Positions 41,964-48,145 of a DNA stretch of 64,000 nt are shown piece after piece. Position 1 is the stretch's first letter, and every line of letters starts with the position of its first letter. The stretch is from Megamonas funiformis (lineage in GTDB: Bacteria > Bacillota > Negativicutes > Selenomonadales > Selenomonadaceae), in contig NZ_CP048627.1 in assembly GCF_010669225.1 (NCBI RefSeq), positions 1,625,292-1,689,291 on the forward strand. Reading direction: 5' to 3'. A program made the position numbers and the translations under genes. The notes under the pieces are model-generated. The model did not search any database. It saw only the letters and a program-made list of their open reading frames with translations, and was not told the origin of the DNA.

Positions 41964-42000
41964 ATAAAAAAATAGGTATGAAAAATCACACCTATTTTAA
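41964..42000 (-). terminator. Terminator after the P1B ATPase gene
   Basis: The stem AAATAGGTGTGA / TCATACCTATTT is followed by TTTTATTT on the minus strand. Confidence 0.82.
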
Positions 42001-42008
42001 TTTATTAT

Positions 42009-44138
42009 TTATTTATTAAAAAAATTATCTTTTCCCATCAAAATTCTACTACTATTTAATACTACCGCTAAAGTAGCCGTATTATGAATAATAGCTGCTA
42101 CAAGTGGATTAATTCTACCCAAAGCACCAAGAAGCATTGCCGCCGAATTAATAGTAATTGTAGCTGTAAAATTTTGACGAATTAATTTCATAGTATTTTG
42201 ACCAAGTTCTAAAGCGTCCATTAATTTTATTGGATTATCCGAATTAATTGTGATATCCGAAGATTCTACAGCAATATCTGTTCGACGACCACCTAATGCT
42301 ACCCCTACATCAGCAAAAGCTAATGCTGGCGCATCATTTATACCATCTCCTACCATTAATACATGTCCATTTTTCTGTAGTCTATTTACAATTTCAGCTT
42401 TATCTTCTGGTAAAATTTCTGCATAATAATTGTCAATTCCCATTTTATGTGCTACAGTATTAGCTACTTCTTCACTATCTCCTGTAAGCATTACAATTTC
42501 ATCAATACCATGCCGACGCATCTGATTAAAAGTTTTTTTCATTTGTGGACGTATTGGATCATTAATAACAATTAAACCCATAAGCTTAGCATCACGTGCT
42601 ACATATAAGATATTATGACCTGGCATAGTTTCTATATCAGAAAAATTATCTAGACCTGTTACTTCTCTATCCATCATAAAATGATGACTGCCTACAATAA
42701 TATGTCCACCTTTAAATCCATCAAAATCATCCACATTTGCTTCCATACCATGAGCAACTACTGTATCTGAATCTATGTGGTCTGGTACTTTCCAACCTTG
42801 TTCCTCTACATAATTTTGAATAGCCACTGCCAATGGATGAACTGAATGAATTTCTGCTGATGCTGCTAATAATATCATTTCTTTTTCACAAACACCCTCA
42901 GCTGTATGTGTTTCTACTATTTTCGGCTCACCTACTGTAATTGTTCCTGTTTTATCCATAACTACAGTATCAATATCAGCTAAAGCTTCAATATAGTTAC
43001 CACCTTTTATTAAAATTCCTTGTTTTGCAGCAGTAGCTACTGCTGCTGATATTGCTGTTGCCGTAGATAATTTTAAACCACAAGAAAAATCAATAAATAA
43101 TAAATTAAGTACACGTTGCCAATCACGAGTTGCTCCATAAACAATAGCTGCCCCTATAAAAGAAATAGGAACTAACATATTCGCCATTCTATCAGCAAAA
43201 TTTTGTACAGGAGCTCGGCGAGCTTGTGCATCTTCTACTAAATGCACAATTCTAGCAAGAGATGTATCATCTCCTACTTTCTGTACTAAAATAGTAAGTT
43301 GTCCACCCTGTACTACTGAACCTGCATATACTGGATCATCTTGTCCTTTTAAAGCAGGATTGGATTCACCTGTTATTGAAGCTTGGTCAATTGCCGCATT
43401 ACCACTTAAAACCTTGCCATCAACGCAAATCTTTTCTCCAGTATGCACTGCAATAACATCATTTACCTTAATAGTTTCTATGGGTACTTTTACTTCATGT
43501 CCATCATCTTCTACACGCCATACATATTGTTGATCTAATTTCAACAAACTAGATATATGTTTTCTAGCTCGTTCTGCTGCATAAATAGTAAGCATTTCGG
43601 CTACATTAGAAAGTGTCATTAAACTTAAACTAGATTCTGGTTTACCTGCTAATACTGAAGCAATAACAGCTGTCGAAGTAAGTGTATCAGCATTTGGCTG
43701 ACCATCTGTTATTAAACCTTTTAAACCATTTTTAATTACATTACGTGCAATTCCCAATACAAATAAACTACGCACAATATTTAAACTTGTATATACTTGC
43801 GGAGCAAATTTTTTCAATACTTGTAAACCCACAAAGCCTACTAAAGAAATAATTGCATCTCGTTTATAAGCTTGTAATTCATTATTGATATCTTTCTTCA
43901 CTGGCAAAGTTTCTTTTGGTTTATTAACTACCGGTATATTTACTTTATAACCTAAAACCTGTATAATTGCTAATTTATTTATACTATCTTTATAAAATAT
44001 ACGTACTGCCTTTGAATAATATCTTACTAGAACAACATTTTTAATTGCATGTAAACGTAAAGTCAATTTATTTCTTTGATTTACAGTTAAATAAGATTGT
44101 AATGGAATTTGACAATATCTCATAGTTTGATTCGTCAT
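42009..44138 (-). CDS. P1B-type metal ATPase of unusual type (candidate ferrosome ATPase)
   Basis: This is a membrane ATPase of 709 aa. It has the P-ATPase core: TGES (256-259), DKTGTIT (395-401), an HP motif in HSVHPLA and GDGINDAPAL (597-606). The membrane metal motif, usually CPC, SPC or TPC, is here SCG (352-354). The N-terminal region (about 1-70) looks like a degenerate HMA fold without CxxC. These changes set it apart from Cu, Zn/Cd and Co exporters and resemble the P1B-6 group used by ferrosomes. It shares 1 base with the upstream HMA-like gene and lies next to the feo genes. The metal (iron) is inferred. Confidence 0.85.
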   Translation of the reverse strand: MTNQTMRYCQIPLQSYLTVNQRNKLTLRLHAIKNVVLVRYYSKAVRIFYKDSINKLAIIQVLGYKVNIPVVNKPKETLPVKKDINNELQAYKRDAIISLVGFVGLQVLKKFAPQVYTSLNIVRSLFVLGIARNVIKNGLKGLITDGQPNADTLTSTAVIASVLAGKPESSLSLMTLSNVAEMLTIYAAERARKHISSLLKLDQQYVWRVEDDGHEVKVPIETIKVNDVIAVHTGEKICVDGKVLSGNAAIDQASITGESNPALKGQDDPVYAGSVVQGGQLTILVQKVGDDTSLARIVHLVEDAQARRAPVQNFADRMANMLVPISFIGAAIVYGATRDWQRVLNLLFIDFSCGLKLSTATAISAAVATAAKQGILIKGGNYIEALADIDTVVMDKTGTITVGEPKIVETHTAEGVCEKEMILLAASAEIHSVHPLAVAIQNYVEEQGWKVPDHIDSDTVVAHGMEANVDDFDGFKGGHIIVGSHHFMMDREVTGLDNFSDIETMPGHNILYVARDAKLMGLIVINDPIRPQMKKTFNQMRRHGIDEIVMLTGDSEEVANTVAHKMGIDNYYAEILPEDKAEIVNRLQKNGHVLMVGDGINDAPALAFADVGVALGGRRTDIAVESSDITINSDNPIKLMDALELGQNTMKLIRQNFTATITINSAAMLLGALGRINPLVAAIIHNTATLAVVLNSSRILMGKDNFFNK

Positions 44139-44761
44139 TATTTACCAATTCCTCTCAAAATAGAAAATGCCCACCATAGCATTTGTGGTCCATTAGGACG
44201 TTGCCCCATAGTTAAAATCTTACGTATACCTCTTAAAGCAAAAAAACTTGATACTAGTACACGTAAATCTATGACATTATTTGTTTTTTTCTTAACCCAT
44301 TCATTTATCTCTTTCACTACCATTAAAATAGTATCACTAGCCATAGTAGTTGCTTGATTACTCATTTGGGTTACTTTATGTTTAAAAGCAAATACCTTGT
44401 TTTTCAACTGTGCAAATATATCATCTATAATATTTTCTACACAACTATATATAATAAGTAAACTTCCCGTATTAATATTAGTAGTAACTTCTTTTATATA
44501 TGGTAACTCTTTCAATTTTAAACTTAATACTTTAGCTAATTTTTCATTTTGTTTTAAAGCATCAATATAATAACGGCGACGCCCTTTTATAGCATGTGCC
44601 AAACGAAAACTTTGTGCTTTTATTTCTTCATTTATAGTATTCAATCCTTGATGTAGTTCTGAAAAACTAAAAATTTTATTATTTCCTCCATCTTTAGAAA
44701 AAAATTTTAATAATTGTTGTCCAATAGTTAATCCAATAGCCATACCAGATGCATATGACAT
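44138..44761 (-). CDS. Hydrophobic HMA-like protein 2 (candidate ferrosome protein)
   Basis: This protein has 207 aa. A Gly-containing hydrophobic N-terminal segment (SYASGMAIGLTIGQQLLKFF) comes first. An HMA_2-like domain (about 55-120) follows with KGRRRYYIDAL, then EVTTNINTGSLLIIYS, where metal-binding CxxC is absent and Arg residues stand in the equivalent loop. A C-terminal hydrophobic segment follows. The ATG at 44761 lies behind GGGGTGG. It lies between a similar HMA-like gene and the P1B ATPase gene, with 1-base overlap to the latter. Confidence 0.72.
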   Translation of the reverse strand: MSYASGMAIGLTIGQQLLKFFSKDGGNNKIFSFSELHQGLNTINEEIKAQSFRLAHAIKGRRRYYIDALKQNEKLAKVLSLKLKELPYIKEVTTNINTGSLLIIYSCVENIIDDIFAQLKNKVFAFKHKVTQMSNQATTMASDTILMVVKEINEWVKKKTNNVIDLRVLVSSFFALRGIRKILTMGQRPNGPQMLWWAFSILRGIGK

Positions 44762-44775
44762 AAAATCCACCCCAC

Positions 44776-45255
44776 TTATCTATTTGCACGTTTTTTTATA
44801 TATGCTTCAATCTCACAAAGTTCTTTATTAGTTTTTATTTTTGCTGGTTGATATTCAATAAGAACAGAACCTGTTATTGTATTTATAGTAACTTTGTCTA
44901 GTTCATTATATTTAGCCATAGTTTCTTCAACTTTTAACTTTAATTGTGCATTATTTATTAAAGCTTTACTATAAACACGAATACGTCCTGGTATATAAGA
45001 ACCTACTGTTACTGATTTTAAAAACCAATCCATCTTAGATGTTGGTATACCCACTGCATTTAGAATATTCATTTGACTAAAACCCTTCCTCACATTATTT
45101 TTCATCACTTTTTTATATTGATACGCATGTGCTAAAGATAAAGCTGTCCAAGCTATTCCAAATACAGTATGTATTTTTTTACTTCCTGTTACCAAAGATA
45201 AAACAGTACCTGTCATTCCAACAGCTAAAGGAATTCCTAAACTCATCTTTTTCAT
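44776..45255 (-). CDS. Hydrophobic HMA-like protein 1 (candidate ferrosome protein)
   Basis: This protein has 159 aa. Hydrophobic segments in the first half (SLGIPLAVGMTGTVLSLVTG and HTVFGIAWTALSLAHAYQY) are followed by an HMA_2-like domain (about 90-145). It reads SYIPGRIRVYSKAL, then DKVTINTITGSVLIEYQPAK, the same pattern as in HMA-like protein 2. No metal-binding cysteines are present. It starts with ATG behind GGAGAA and is the first gene of the three-gene set with the P1B ATPase. Confidence 0.72.
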   Translation of the reverse strand: MKKMSLGIPLAVGMTGTVLSLVTGSKKIHTVFGIAWTALSLAHAYQYKKVMKNNVRKGFSQMNILNAVGIPTSKMDWFLKSVTVGSYIPGRIRVYSKALINNAQLKLKVEETMAKYNELDKVTINTITGSVLIEYQPAKIKTNKELCEIEAYIKKRANR

Positions 45256-45267
45256 AATACATTCTCC

Positions 45268-45282
45268 ATATAATAATTATTT
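45268..45282. promoter_or_regulatory. Weak Fur-like box ahead of HMA-like protein 1
   Basis: ATATAATAATTATTT is symmetric and matches the 7-1-7 Fur consensus at 10 of 14 positions. The region is AT-rich, so chance is a real alternative. Confidence 0.35.
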
Positions 45283-45306
45283 TTTATAAAAATACACATA
45301 GATTTT

Positions 45307-45341
45307 AAAAAAGGAGTGTTTTAATAAACACTCCTTTTTTA
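45307..45341. terminator. Terminator between the small membrane protein and HMA-like genes
   Basis: The stem AAAAAAGGAGTGTTT and its complement has T-runs on both strands. It means the HMA-ATPase genes need their own promoter. Confidence 0.83.
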
Positions 45342-45347
45342 TTGAAA

Positions 45348-45551
45348 TTATTTAACTTCAGCAGCTTGCTGTGCAGCAATCATATCTTCTAAAGCTTCTT
45401 TTTGACGAACAAGTTCTTCCATAGACACTTGTTCTTGTCCTTCCGCAATAACAGGTTGTTGCTGAACACGATTTTGCATATATTTATAACCAAATGCACC
45501 TGCTACCACACCTACAGCTAAACCAATCCAAAAATCTGTTCTTGTAAACAT
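45348..45551 (-). CDS. Small single-span membrane protein in the iron region
   Basis: This is a 67-aa protein. One glycine-rich membrane helix (DFWIGLAVGVVAGAFGYKYMQ, about 5-25) is followed by a Glu/Gln-rich cytoplasmic helix that may form a coiled coil. The ATG at 45551 has AAGGAG at 9 bases; a TTG two codons earlier is too close. A good Fur box lies upstream. I recognise no family with certainty. Its place between feo genes and the P1B set suggests a part in iron handling or membrane organisation. Confidence 0.65.
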   Translation of the reverse strand: MFTRTDFWIGLAVGVVAGAFGYKYMQNRVQQQPVIAEGQEQVSMEELVRQKEALEDMIAAQQAAEVK

Positions 45552-45608
45552 AATCAAGACTCCTTTTAATATAATATATAATAGACCTTTTATTATAAAG
45601 CAAAATGC

Positions 45609-45623
45609 CTATAATCATTATCA
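45609..45623 (-). promoter_or_regulatory. Fur box ahead of the small membrane protein gene
   Basis: CTATAATCATTATCA matches the 7-1-7 Fur consensus at 12 of 14 positions and overlaps the stop codon of the upstream gene. A TATAAT about 20 bases downstream (minus strand) is a likely -10, so the box overlaps the -35 area. Confidence 0.7.
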
Positions 45624-45827
45624 ATGCTGTTTATCTTTGACCTTAGAAATTAGCTTATTATCTGTTCCACAGCAATCACAATGGCAACCGCCAGAACAAC
45701 CATTATTTGTACCACAAGAATCACATTTTCCTGAAGAAAAATTATGATATATGCGTTTCATACCAAAAACAAAAGCTATAAATATTATCAAAGCTATAAT
45801 CCAAGTAGCGATATCACCTGTCGTCAT
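45621..45827 (-). CDS. FeoB-associated Cys-rich membrane protein
   Basis: This protein has 68 aa: one N-terminal membrane helix (about 8-22), then a cysteine-rich tail CDSCGTNNGCSGGCHCDCC with seven Cys. Proteins of this shape are found directly after feoB in many Firmicutes and may bind or pass on Fe2+. It lies 42 bases after feoB behind GGAGG. Confidence 0.88.
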   Translation of the reverse strand: MTTGDIATWIIALIIFIAFVFGMKRIYHNFSSGKCDSCGTNNGCSGGCHCDCCGTDNKLISKVKDKQH

Positions 45828-45869
45828 TTAAAAGCCTCCGTTTATTTTTATACTAAATATCAAAATTTA

Positions 45870-47765
45870 TCAAAAACCTAATAATGTGCCTACTTGATAA
45901 ACTAATAAAGATACAACCCATGCTACAACAAAATTACCAATAGCAGATAAGAACATCCATTTCCAACCACCAGCTTCTTTCTTTATTGTACCAAGTGCTG
46001 TCATACATGGTGTATATAACTGGCTAAACACCATAAATGCTAACGCAGACATTGTCGTAAATGCCATCTGTAATCCAGTATTAGCTACCATACCTACAGC
46101 TTCAACAGTTTCAGTATCAGGGCTTAAATCAGGTAAACCATATAAAATACCCATTGTAGAAATAACAGCTTCTTTTGCCATAATACCAGTAATAACAGCA
46201 GAACCAGCTTCCCATGTATCAAAACCATGGAATACAAACAATGTGGACATAATACCACCAAGACTAGCTAATAAAGATTCAGACATATCTTCTACTTGAC
46301 CTGCAAAATTATAACTGCTTAAGAACCATAAAATTACAGACATAGCAAAAATTATTGTACCTGCTTTTATGAGATAACCTTTACCTTTATCCCATGTTTC
46401 TAACAATACTGTTTTCATATCTGGAATACGATATGGTGGTAATTCTAAAACAAAGCTTGTATTATCCTTTTCAAATACAGTTCTACTCAATATACTAGAA
46501 GCTAAAATTGCACCAATTATACCGATAAGATACATAGCAAATACAACATCACCTGCATTTTCACCAAAGAAAATAGCTCCAAATAACGCCATTACTGGAA
46601 GTTTAGCACCACAAGTTAAAAACGGCGTTACTAAAATAGTTATCATACGGTCTTTTTCTGAATCTAACGCTCTAGCTCCCATAATACCTGGAACAGCACA
46701 ACCGAAACCACAAATAATAGGCATCAATGCTTTACCACTAAGACCAGCACGACGCATAATTGGGTCCATGACAAAAGCCACACGAGCCATATATCCTGTA
46801 CCGTCTAAGAAACTCAAGCAGAAAAATAACGTGAAAATAAGTGGCACAAAAGTAAGCACTCCACCTACACCAGCTATAATACCATCACATACTAAAGAAT
46901 GTAACCAATCAGCTACACCTAATCCAGTCAACGCTTCATCTGCCCAACCATAAAAATCTTCATTTATAAGTACATCTAATTCATCAGCAATCGGTTGACC
47001 AATCCATGTAAAAGTAATCTGGAATACAAGATATAACATTAATACTAAAATAGGTAATGCCATAAAGCCATTAGCTAATACTTTATCAATCTTTTCAGTG
47101 AGATTATTACCTACATTTTCCTTAACGACAACTTGCTCTACAATTTTATCAATAAAAGCATAACGTGCTTCTATAATTGCTTCTTCTAATTTTTCTTTAT
47201 CACTAATAGTAGCTTTTAACTTTTCAATATTAGCAATATGTTCTTCCACCTGTTGAGAATTTTTATAACTATCCATTACTGTAGAAGTGAAGATATCTAA
47301 TAATTTATTAGTGGATTTTTTACTGCGACCTACAGTTTCTACTACAGGCATTCCTAATAATTTTTCTAACTTAGCTGTAGAAATTTTAATTCCTTTTTTA
47401 TTCGCTTCGTCCATCATATTAAGGTCAACTAATACAGGAATACGACGCTCTAACAATTGTAAACATAAAAATAAATTACGTTCAATATTAGAAGAATCAA
47501 TGACATCTACAATAATATCAGGTTTTTCTCCACTTAAATAGTTTTCTACGATAATTTCTTCTGGAGAACGTCCGTTTATGCTATATGTACCAGGTAAATC
47601 CATTACAGATATAGCTCTATCTTTATGTTTTGTATAACCTACTTTTTTATCTACTGTAACTCCTGGCCAGTTACCAATTTTTTGTCTAATACCAGTTAAT
47701 TCATTGAATATTGTTGATTTCCCAGTATTGGGATTTCCTGTCAACGCTACGGATAATGTTGCCAC
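45870..47765 (-). CDS. feoB: Ferrous iron transporter FeoB
   Basis: This inner-membrane Fe2+ importer has 631 aa, shorter than the 773 of E. coli but normal for Firmicutes. The N-terminal G domain has ALTGNPNTGKSTIFNELTG (G1), VMDLPGTYS (G3) and LVDLNMMDEA (G4-like NMMD). A helical spacer follows (about 160-225). The membrane core (about 230-631) has two Gate-type repeats with CGFGCAVPGIMGAR and LVTPFLTCGAKLPVM. It starts with GTG behind GGGAGGG, 23 bases after feoA. Confidence 0.96.
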   Translation of the reverse strand: MATLSVALTGNPNTGKSTIFNELTGIRQKIGNWPGVTVDKKVGYTKHKDRAISVMDLPGTYSINGRSPEEIIVENYLSGEKPDIIVDVIDSSNIERNLFLCLQLLERRIPVLVDLNMMDEANKKGIKISTAKLEKLLGMPVVETVGRSKKSTNKLLDIFTSTVMDSYKNSQQVEEHIANIEKLKATISDKEKLEEAIIEARYAFIDKIVEQVVVKENVGNNLTEKIDKVLANGFMALPILVLMLYLVFQITFTWIGQPIADELDVLINEDFYGWADEALTGLGVADWLHSLVCDGIIAGVGGVLTFVPLIFTLFFCLSFLDGTGYMARVAFVMDPIMRRAGLSGKALMPIICGFGCAVPGIMGARALDSEKDRMITILVTPFLTCGAKLPVMALFGAIFFGENAGDVVFAMYLIGIIGAILASSILSRTVFEKDNTSFVLELPPYRIPDMKTVLLETWDKGKGYLIKAGTIIFAMSVILWFLSSYNFAGQVEDMSESLLASLGGIMSTLFVFHGFDTWEAGSAVITGIMAKEAVISTMGILYGLPDLSPDTETVEAVGMVANTGLQMAFTTMSALAFMVFSQLYTPCMTALGTIKKEAGGWKWMFLSAIGNFVVAWVVSLLVYQVGTLLGF

Positions 47766-47788
47766 TATTATCTCCCTCCCATTAATTA

Positions 47789-48013
47789 TTAAGCAATTTG
47801 AGTAACTGCAATTTTTGCCGCATCAGATAAACGAATAGACATATTAAAAGAACGAATAGATATCGCAATCGGGTCTCCAAGTGGCGCTGAACGCAATACC
47901 TTTACTTTTGTACCTTTTACCATTCCCATACTCATAAGACGCTCTTTCAATTCTGAAGCCTCTATAGACTCAACTTTTACTACCATTCCTGGCTTTGCTT
48001 CCTTTAAAGTCAT
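47789..48013 (-). CDS. feoA: FeoA family protein
   Basis: This is a small SH3-like cytoplasmic protein of 74 aa needed for FeoB activity. It has the family pattern AKPGMVVKVESIEASELKERLMSMGMVKGTKVKVLRSAPLGDPIAISIRSFNMSIRLSDAAKI. Its ATG lies behind AGGAGG, and it is the first gene of the Fur-flanked feo operon. Confidence 0.94.
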   Translation of the reverse strand: MTLKEAKPGMVVKVESIEASELKERLMSMGMVKGTKVKVLRSAPLGDPIAISIRSFNMSIRLSDAAKIAVTQIA

Positions 48014-48063
48014 AATATTCCTCCTTCTATTTTAAAATCTTTCTTTATATTTGTTTTTGATTT

Positions 48064-48145
48064 TGATAATAATTATTACTTCTTTTAACAACCACATTAT
48101 ATAGCAAATGATAATCCATGTCAATAAAAATGATAAATATTATCT
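48064..48145 (-). promoter_or_regulatory. feo promoter with three Fur-like boxes
   Basis: On the minus strand there is a -35 TTGACA (48124-48119), a 17-base spacer and a -10 TATAAT (48101-48096). Fur-like boxes: TGATAATAATTATTA (48064-48078, 13 of 14), TGATAATCCATGTCA (48109-48123, overlapping the -35) and TGATAAATATTATCT (48131-48145, 12 of 14). Boxes upstream of, in and downstream of the core promoter predict strong repression by iron. Confidence 0.85.

Follow-up and report, generated by a model that had tools for sequence, protein, structure and literature searches.

In Clostridioides difficile, the iron-storage organelles known as ferrosomes require both the membrane protein FezA and the transporter FezB, and both proteins are Fur-repressed (PMC12574912). 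Small membrane proteins of the PacL (DUF1490) and DUF6110 families have been described as related, and it has been proposed that they assemble P1B6 pumps into platforms within the membrane (PMC9374683, PMC13043812), and HN in transmembrane segment 6 (TM6) is listed as a feature of the P1B6 class (PMC9374683). Here we describe a four-gene cassette from the anaerobe Megamonas funiformis, located on the minus strand at positions 42009-45557 of a stretch of 64,000 nucleotides (NZ_CP048627.1, positions 1,625,292 to 1,689,291; “the window” below), which encodes a P1B ATPase, two HMA_2 proteins and a small single-helix membrane protein. With moderate confidence, we read the cassette as a Fur-controlled, ferrosome-type (Fez-like) system for Fe(II) sequestration, built on a distinct SCG/HMA_2 lineage of P1B6 pumps; the substrate Fe(II), Fur as the binding protein, the vesicle and storage are all points that we infer from the sequence. 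The cassette genes are listed below with the evidence for each.

42009..44138, minus strand: P1B6-type ATPase (FezB-like, SCG lineage), 709 amino acids; intact catalytic motifs, tree placement
44138..44770, minus strand: long HMA_2 protein, 210 amino acids; Pfam HMA_2 E=1.2e-34, alignment, AlphaFold model
44776..45255, minus strand: short HMA_2 protein, 159 amino acids; Pfam HMA_2 E=8.2e-15, alignment
45348..45557, minus strand: small single-helix membrane protein, candidate counterpart of FezA/DUF6110/PacL, 67-69 amino acids (likely start, the ATG at 45551); conservation, alignment, reciprocal search with hidden Markov models, model

A first-pass annotation of this DNA had proposed a ferrosome cluster made of a P1B ATPase with SCG in place of CPC, SPC or TPC and two HMA-like proteins without metal-binding cysteines, and the genes, coordinates and motifs that it gave were all correct. 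The small membrane protein, which it had treated as a mere neighbor, is instead a fourth core gene, since it belongs to the cassette in all 30 relatives whose contig spans the locus.

FezB is a P1B6 ATPase. For this reason, and because of the description of FezA and FezB cited above, we take the DUF6110-P1B6 gene pair of C. difficile to be fezA-fezB. Like the window cassette, this pair has the P1B6 hallmarks, an HMA_2-type region without CxxC and, upstream of the pump, a gene for a small single-helix partner; control by Fur is reported for the C. difficile genes and predicted for the cassette. Unlike the cassette, the pair has an SCA motif, lacks separate HMA_2 genes and does not lie beside feoAB, and its small protein scores above the cut-off for DUF6110 whereas that of the window does not. 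FezC, the DUF4405-like cytochrome of the D. magneticus type, has no counterpart within the window cluster; none turned up next to the C. difficile pair either, so FezC is not a universal Fez feature. The mycobacterial PacL1-CtpC system (DUF1490 plus a P1B6-like ATPase) offers another parallel, in that a small transmembrane protein with a charged cytoplasmic tail is paired with a pump carrying HN in TM6. It differs from the window in having CPC rather than SCG in TM4, a role in zinc efflux and a metal-binding tail on PacL1 (the tail of the window protein has no C-terminal metal-binding motif), and in lacking HMA_2 genes and any Fur or feo link. The SPC of P1B4 Fe(II) exporters (PfeT/FrvA) is also not what the window ATPase carries in TM4.

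Place of the ATPase among P1B pumps

The motifs TGES, DKTGT, P1B HP and GDGIND are all intact, and the ATPase is catalytically complete. Its TM4 reads FIDFSCGLKLSTATA (FIDFSCGLKLS) and its TM6 carries HN (IHNTAT). We compared it with ATPases gathered from the window's family, Clostridia, Fusobacterium and Priestia records labeled as plasmids, Rhodococcus (CtpC-like) and three C. difficile genomes obtained via a tpi-gene pattern. In each of these three genomes the sole P1B6-type pump reads SCALKLS in TM4 and lies beside a small Pfam DUF6110 protein; no P1B6-type pump was seen in a fourth genome labeled C. difficile (173070).

In a maximum-likelihood tree covering P1B1, P1B2, CtpC-like and P1B6 ATPases, with FezB represented by that of C. 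difficile, the SCG group (n = 13) and the SCA group (n = 10, including C. difficile) were each monophyletic and were sisters with support 100/99. The CtpC-like CPC pumps fell outside these two groups and P1B2 was more distant; P1B1 lay outside as well. The sister relation was retained when the TM4 and TM6 motif columns were removed (SH-like approximate likelihood ratio test, 95). All 23 members of the SCG and SCA clades share D-aromatic-x-C-(A/G/V)-x-(K/R) in TM4, HN in TM6 (13/13 SCG and 10/10 SCA sequences) and the lack of CPC, a combination that is absent from P1B2. Because of this placement and these shared hallmarks, we assign the window ATPase to a lineage of its own within P1B6, and not to the exporters of Cu, Zn/Cd or the SPC type. 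The subgroup assignment agrees with the first-pass annotation, which had looked to P1B-6 ATPases for the nearest parallel: the pump groups with C. difficile FezB and was not placed in a Cu, Zn/Cd or Co/Fe-export subgroup.

A search of the PDB returned other P-type ATPases only and no P1B6 structure. When SCA pumps were used as tblastn queries against plasmids, only a Deinococcus DUF6110-P1B6 pair was found. Two loci (L141:9438-14021 and L143:10235-14851; L numbers are our locus labels) encode P-type ATPases of ~1530 amino acids with a GRxR N-terminus, placed divergently beside CtpC-like CPC pumps; their TM4 resembles that of Ca pumps, AAIPEGLPAVVTIAL. The Fusobacterium vincentii “plasmid” record NZ_CP084075 (L075) is 2.1 Mb long and evidently a chromosome.

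The HMA_2 proteins and the small membrane protein

The long HMA_2 protein consists of an N-terminal helix, an HMA-like domain with a KGRRR loop and a helical C-terminal part with two predicted membrane helices, while the short one has a hydrophobic N-terminus followed by an HMA_2 domain with a PGRIR loop. Both carry TGS(V/L)L motifs and GRxR-type loops, as the first-pass annotation had noted in describing a common GR(I/R)R...NTGS(V/L)L pattern, and both lack CxxC. In the AlphaFold model of the long protein the HMA-like domain is tethered by membrane helices; a Foldseek search with this model gave no significant match, and the weak ones include copper-chaperone HMA folds. C. difficile FezB and CtpC-like pumps begin with the same GRxR module, and the N-terminus of C. 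difficile FezB matches HMA_2 just below the cut-off (E=4e-6). The membrane tether, the lack of metal-binding cysteines and the presence of the GRxR module within these pumps suggest that the HMA_2 proteins serve for docking or as a scaffold more probably than as chaperones. In some relatives the ATPase gene is followed downstream by one more short HMA_2-like gene (L055:5900-6379, L056:6640-6930, L057:4715-5218 and L068:10901-11167).

Of the cassette's small parts, the small membrane protein is one of the most strongly conserved (49-78% identity among relatives), with the motifs DFWIGLAVG...GY and L..QKE.LED.IA. Its model shows a membrane helix joined by a linker to a cytoplasmic helix, and its tail, QKEALEDMIAAQQAAEVK, contains no His or Cys. 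Model and alignment agree with the architecture reported for proteins of the PacL and DUF6110 families. A DUF6110 profile made from seven sequences, including C. difficile, was searched against 3063 small open reading frames; past its own seeds, 27 of the next 28 matches were cassette small proteins. In the reverse search, the cassette profile next found DUF6110 proteins, C. difficile included. Scores of single cassette proteins against the DUF6110 profile were marginal (best E=0.0035). They exceeded those of composition-matched shuffles (median 6.6 vs 0.0 bits, p=2e-24, a value that overstates independence as the rows are related). By these comparisons, the small protein appears to be related to DUF6110, the family of FezB's partner in C. 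difficile.

Gene neighborhood and predicted control

Around the cassette the window contains the following features.

47789..48013, minus strand: feoA; Pfam FeoA E=3.3e-20
45870..47765, minus strand: feoB, Fe(II) transporter; TIGR00437 E=2.3e-178
45621..45827, minus strand: FeoB-associated Cys-rich membrane protein; weak PF12669 match E=0.27, gene order, composition
48096..48124, minus strand: perfect sigma-70 consensus promoter, TTGACA-17-TATAAT, before feoA
48064..48078, no strand assigned: predicted Fur-type box TGATAATAATTATTA, 1 mismatch to the 7-1-7 consensus, before feoA
45609..45623, no strand assigned: predicted Fur-type box TGATAATGATTATAG, 2 mismatches to the 7-1-7 consensus, before the small membrane protein gene
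45310..45337, minus strand: terminator-like hairpin, 12-bp stem and T-run, between the small membrane protein gene and the HMA_2 genes
41969..41998, minus strand: terminator-like site 3' of the ATPase gene, at the end of the gene row

On the minus strand the gene order is feoA, feoB, Cys-rich protein, small membrane protein, short HMA_2, long HMA_2 and ATPase. The first-pass annotation was therefore right to place feoA, feoB, the Cys-rich protein and the small membrane protein directly upstream on the same strand, and Fur-type boxes are predicted, as it stated, at the feo and small-protein promoters; such boxes before the cassette are enriched across relatives, as described below. Its link to feoAB holds for the window's genus, where feo directly adjoins the cassette; over all loci feoB is a frequent but optional neighbor, lying close to 9 of 34 cassettes, on either side or in divergent orientation.

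A search of 60 relatives recovered the long HMA_2 protein in 34. The four genes were intact wherever the contig spanned the locus, and two cut contigs were missing only the cassette genes past the contig ends. Genomes with the cassette mostly hold about 1-3 feoB genes. Flavodoxin, a classic low-iron gene, lies near 7 of 34 cassettes, and a ZIP-family gene near the cassette in two relatives.

Two genomes of the Negativicutes family f139 (L222:6726-12341 and L223:6703-12333) have feoA, feoB, DUF6110 and a P1B6 gene (SCALKLS) in one row. This cluster comes from the same class as the window and has the same slot and order behind feoA-feoB; unlike the window, it has the canonical SCA pump and DUF6110 and no HMA_2 genes. 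Since the f139 order puts the DUF6110-P1B6 pair directly behind feoAB, the canonical pair fills the slot of the window cassette. The window's class is represented in the sample by 17 genomes: 14 have the SCG cassette, the two f139 genomes have DUF6110 and none has both; across 398 genomes DUF6110 and the SCG cassette did not overlap, a signal that is overall too weak to argue from. A clostridial SCA P1B6 pump with DUF6110 (L156:8574-11430) lies beside a small winged-helix regulator with a DtxR- or MarR-like look and ~4 kb from feoAB, a further iron link for P1B6.

Outside this class, pumps of the SCG (or ICG) lineage occur together with HMA_2 proteins and a small transmembrane protein homologous to that of the window on Priestia megaterium plasmids (pBM400) and in Fusobacterium vincentii, Intestinibacter bartlettii and Peptostreptococcus anaerobius. 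Their cassettes differ from that of the window in that the small gene comes last, a further HMA_2 gene mostly follows the ATPase and no feo neighbor was seen. The form on the P. megaterium plasmids (L076:4826-8652 and L078; for example pBM400) is HMA2-HMA2-ATPase(ICG)-HMA2-small protein, near a permease/TIGR03943 pair.

At 32 loci, a site just before the cassette was counted when it ranked within the top 5% for that locus. Fur-type sites (TGAYAATNATTRTCA-type) were found before 18/32 cassettes compared to 24/304 other promoters (p=2e-10). Of the control patterns, Zur-like sites (2/32) and unrelated palindromes (3/32) were not enriched, and a PerR-like pattern was partially enriched (10/32); PerR may be an alternative to Fur in control of the cassette. 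Terminator-like hairpins between the small-protein and HMA_2 genes recur in 13 of 26 relatives, compared to 0.28 expected from shuffles, and would, we infer, yield more small membrane protein than pump. The recurring hairpin often reads GACTGCC...GGCAGTC.

Storage, efflux or another metal

P1B pumps move metal out of the cytosol. Membrane-bound storage of Fe(II) is favored over export by this direction taken together with the Fur-type control, the pairing with FeoB, the kinship with FezB and the ferritin-domain proteins of this genome, which are rubrerythrins only, with no dedicated ferritin found. The genome (2.57 Mb) encodes five E1-E2 ATPases, including CopA-like and CadA-like pumps, and the window ATPase is its one P1B6-type pump. 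The ferrosome identity proposed by the first-pass annotation is partly supported: the pump shares the P1B6 clade with FezB, its small partner appears related to DUF6110, and the predicted Fur-type boxes and adjoining feo genes suggest iron. A straightforward match did not hold, as this is a sister lineage with SCG rather than SCA, two added HMA_2 proteins and no FezC.

Export is the closest rival. The cassette could form an efflux platform for Fe(II) or a broad range of divalent metals in the cytoplasmic membrane, resembling the PacL-CtpC effluxosome, in which the small protein clusters the pump and metal is expelled with no organelle. The described relation of the platform-forming PacL and DUF6110 families (PMC9374683, PMC13043812), the small protein's transmembrane-plus-charged-tail build and the position of CtpC-like ATPases as the next clade out in the tree all speak for it. 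However, the Fur-type boxes and FeoB pairing imply expression at low iron, which is odd for an exporter, the small protein lacks the PacL1-type C-terminal His/Asp metal-binding motif and TM4 lacks the CPC of CtpC, and we consider this explanation unlikely, if worth serious attention. Less probable still is a transporter of Zn, Mn, Ni or Co that lies beside feoAB by chance. Most HMA_2/P1B6 cassettes outside Negativicutes do not adjoin feo and two relatives have the ZIP-family gene nearby, but Fur-type and not Zur-like boxes are enriched, feoB and flavodoxin recur in the neighborhoods and a DUF6110-P1B6 pair holds the same slot behind feoAB. It is very improbable that the pump is a common Cu or Zn/Cd exporter whose metal site has decayed: TIGR01512 (Cd family) does match the ATPase above its cut-off, but this model covers many P1B ATPases, SCG and HN are conserved across the clade, hence no decay, the tree sets the ATPase apart from P1B2 and the genome has pumps of the CopA and CadA types at other loci.

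Several observations weigh against a Fez-like reading of the cassette. Long branches (~0.4 and 1.3 changes per site) part the SCG from the SCA clade, and among the sequences found the SCG lineage has no characterized member of known substrate. The small protein is below the Pfam DUF6110 cut-off and its hhalign alignment to DUF6110 is weak (17.7%); neither comparison by itself establishes homology. The Selenomonadaceae-type relatives show the box enrichment, and the cassettes of Fusobacterium, Priestia and I. bartlettii do not; the Priestia cassettes are near the permease/TIGR03943 pair and not near feo. One relative of the same genus (L039) has no box before the small-protein gene, which may share the feoA promoter.

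If the cassette is a Fez-like storage system, Fur would release when iron is scarce and feoAB and the cassette would be expressed. The small protein would insert in the membrane and, like PacL or FezA, cluster the pump into a membrane patch, of which the HMA_2 proteins, with GRxR loops replacing metal-binding cysteines, would be structural or docking modules and not Cu/Zn chaperones. As iron returned through FeoB, the ATPase would move cytosolic Fe(II) into a membrane-bounded compartment, where it would be stored.

These data broaden the P1B6 signature from SCA to include SCG, suggest FezA, PacL and the new small-protein family as partners of one pump class, and provide a first hypothesis on the role of the uncharacterized HMA_2 family. 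Tentatively, and with some doubt, we propose a second ferrosome lineage in diderm Firmicutes, in which an SCG P1B6 pump, two membrane-anchored HMA_2 proteins without metal-binding cysteines and a FezA/PacL-like scaffold overproduced via a terminator would replace DUF6110-P1B6 behind feoAB in Negativicutes. Import by FeoAB and probable storage would be joined in one locus, and this bacterium probably stores iron behind membranes. Ferrosomes have so far been shown in few bacteria only, and the cassette is a specific candidate in Negativicutes.

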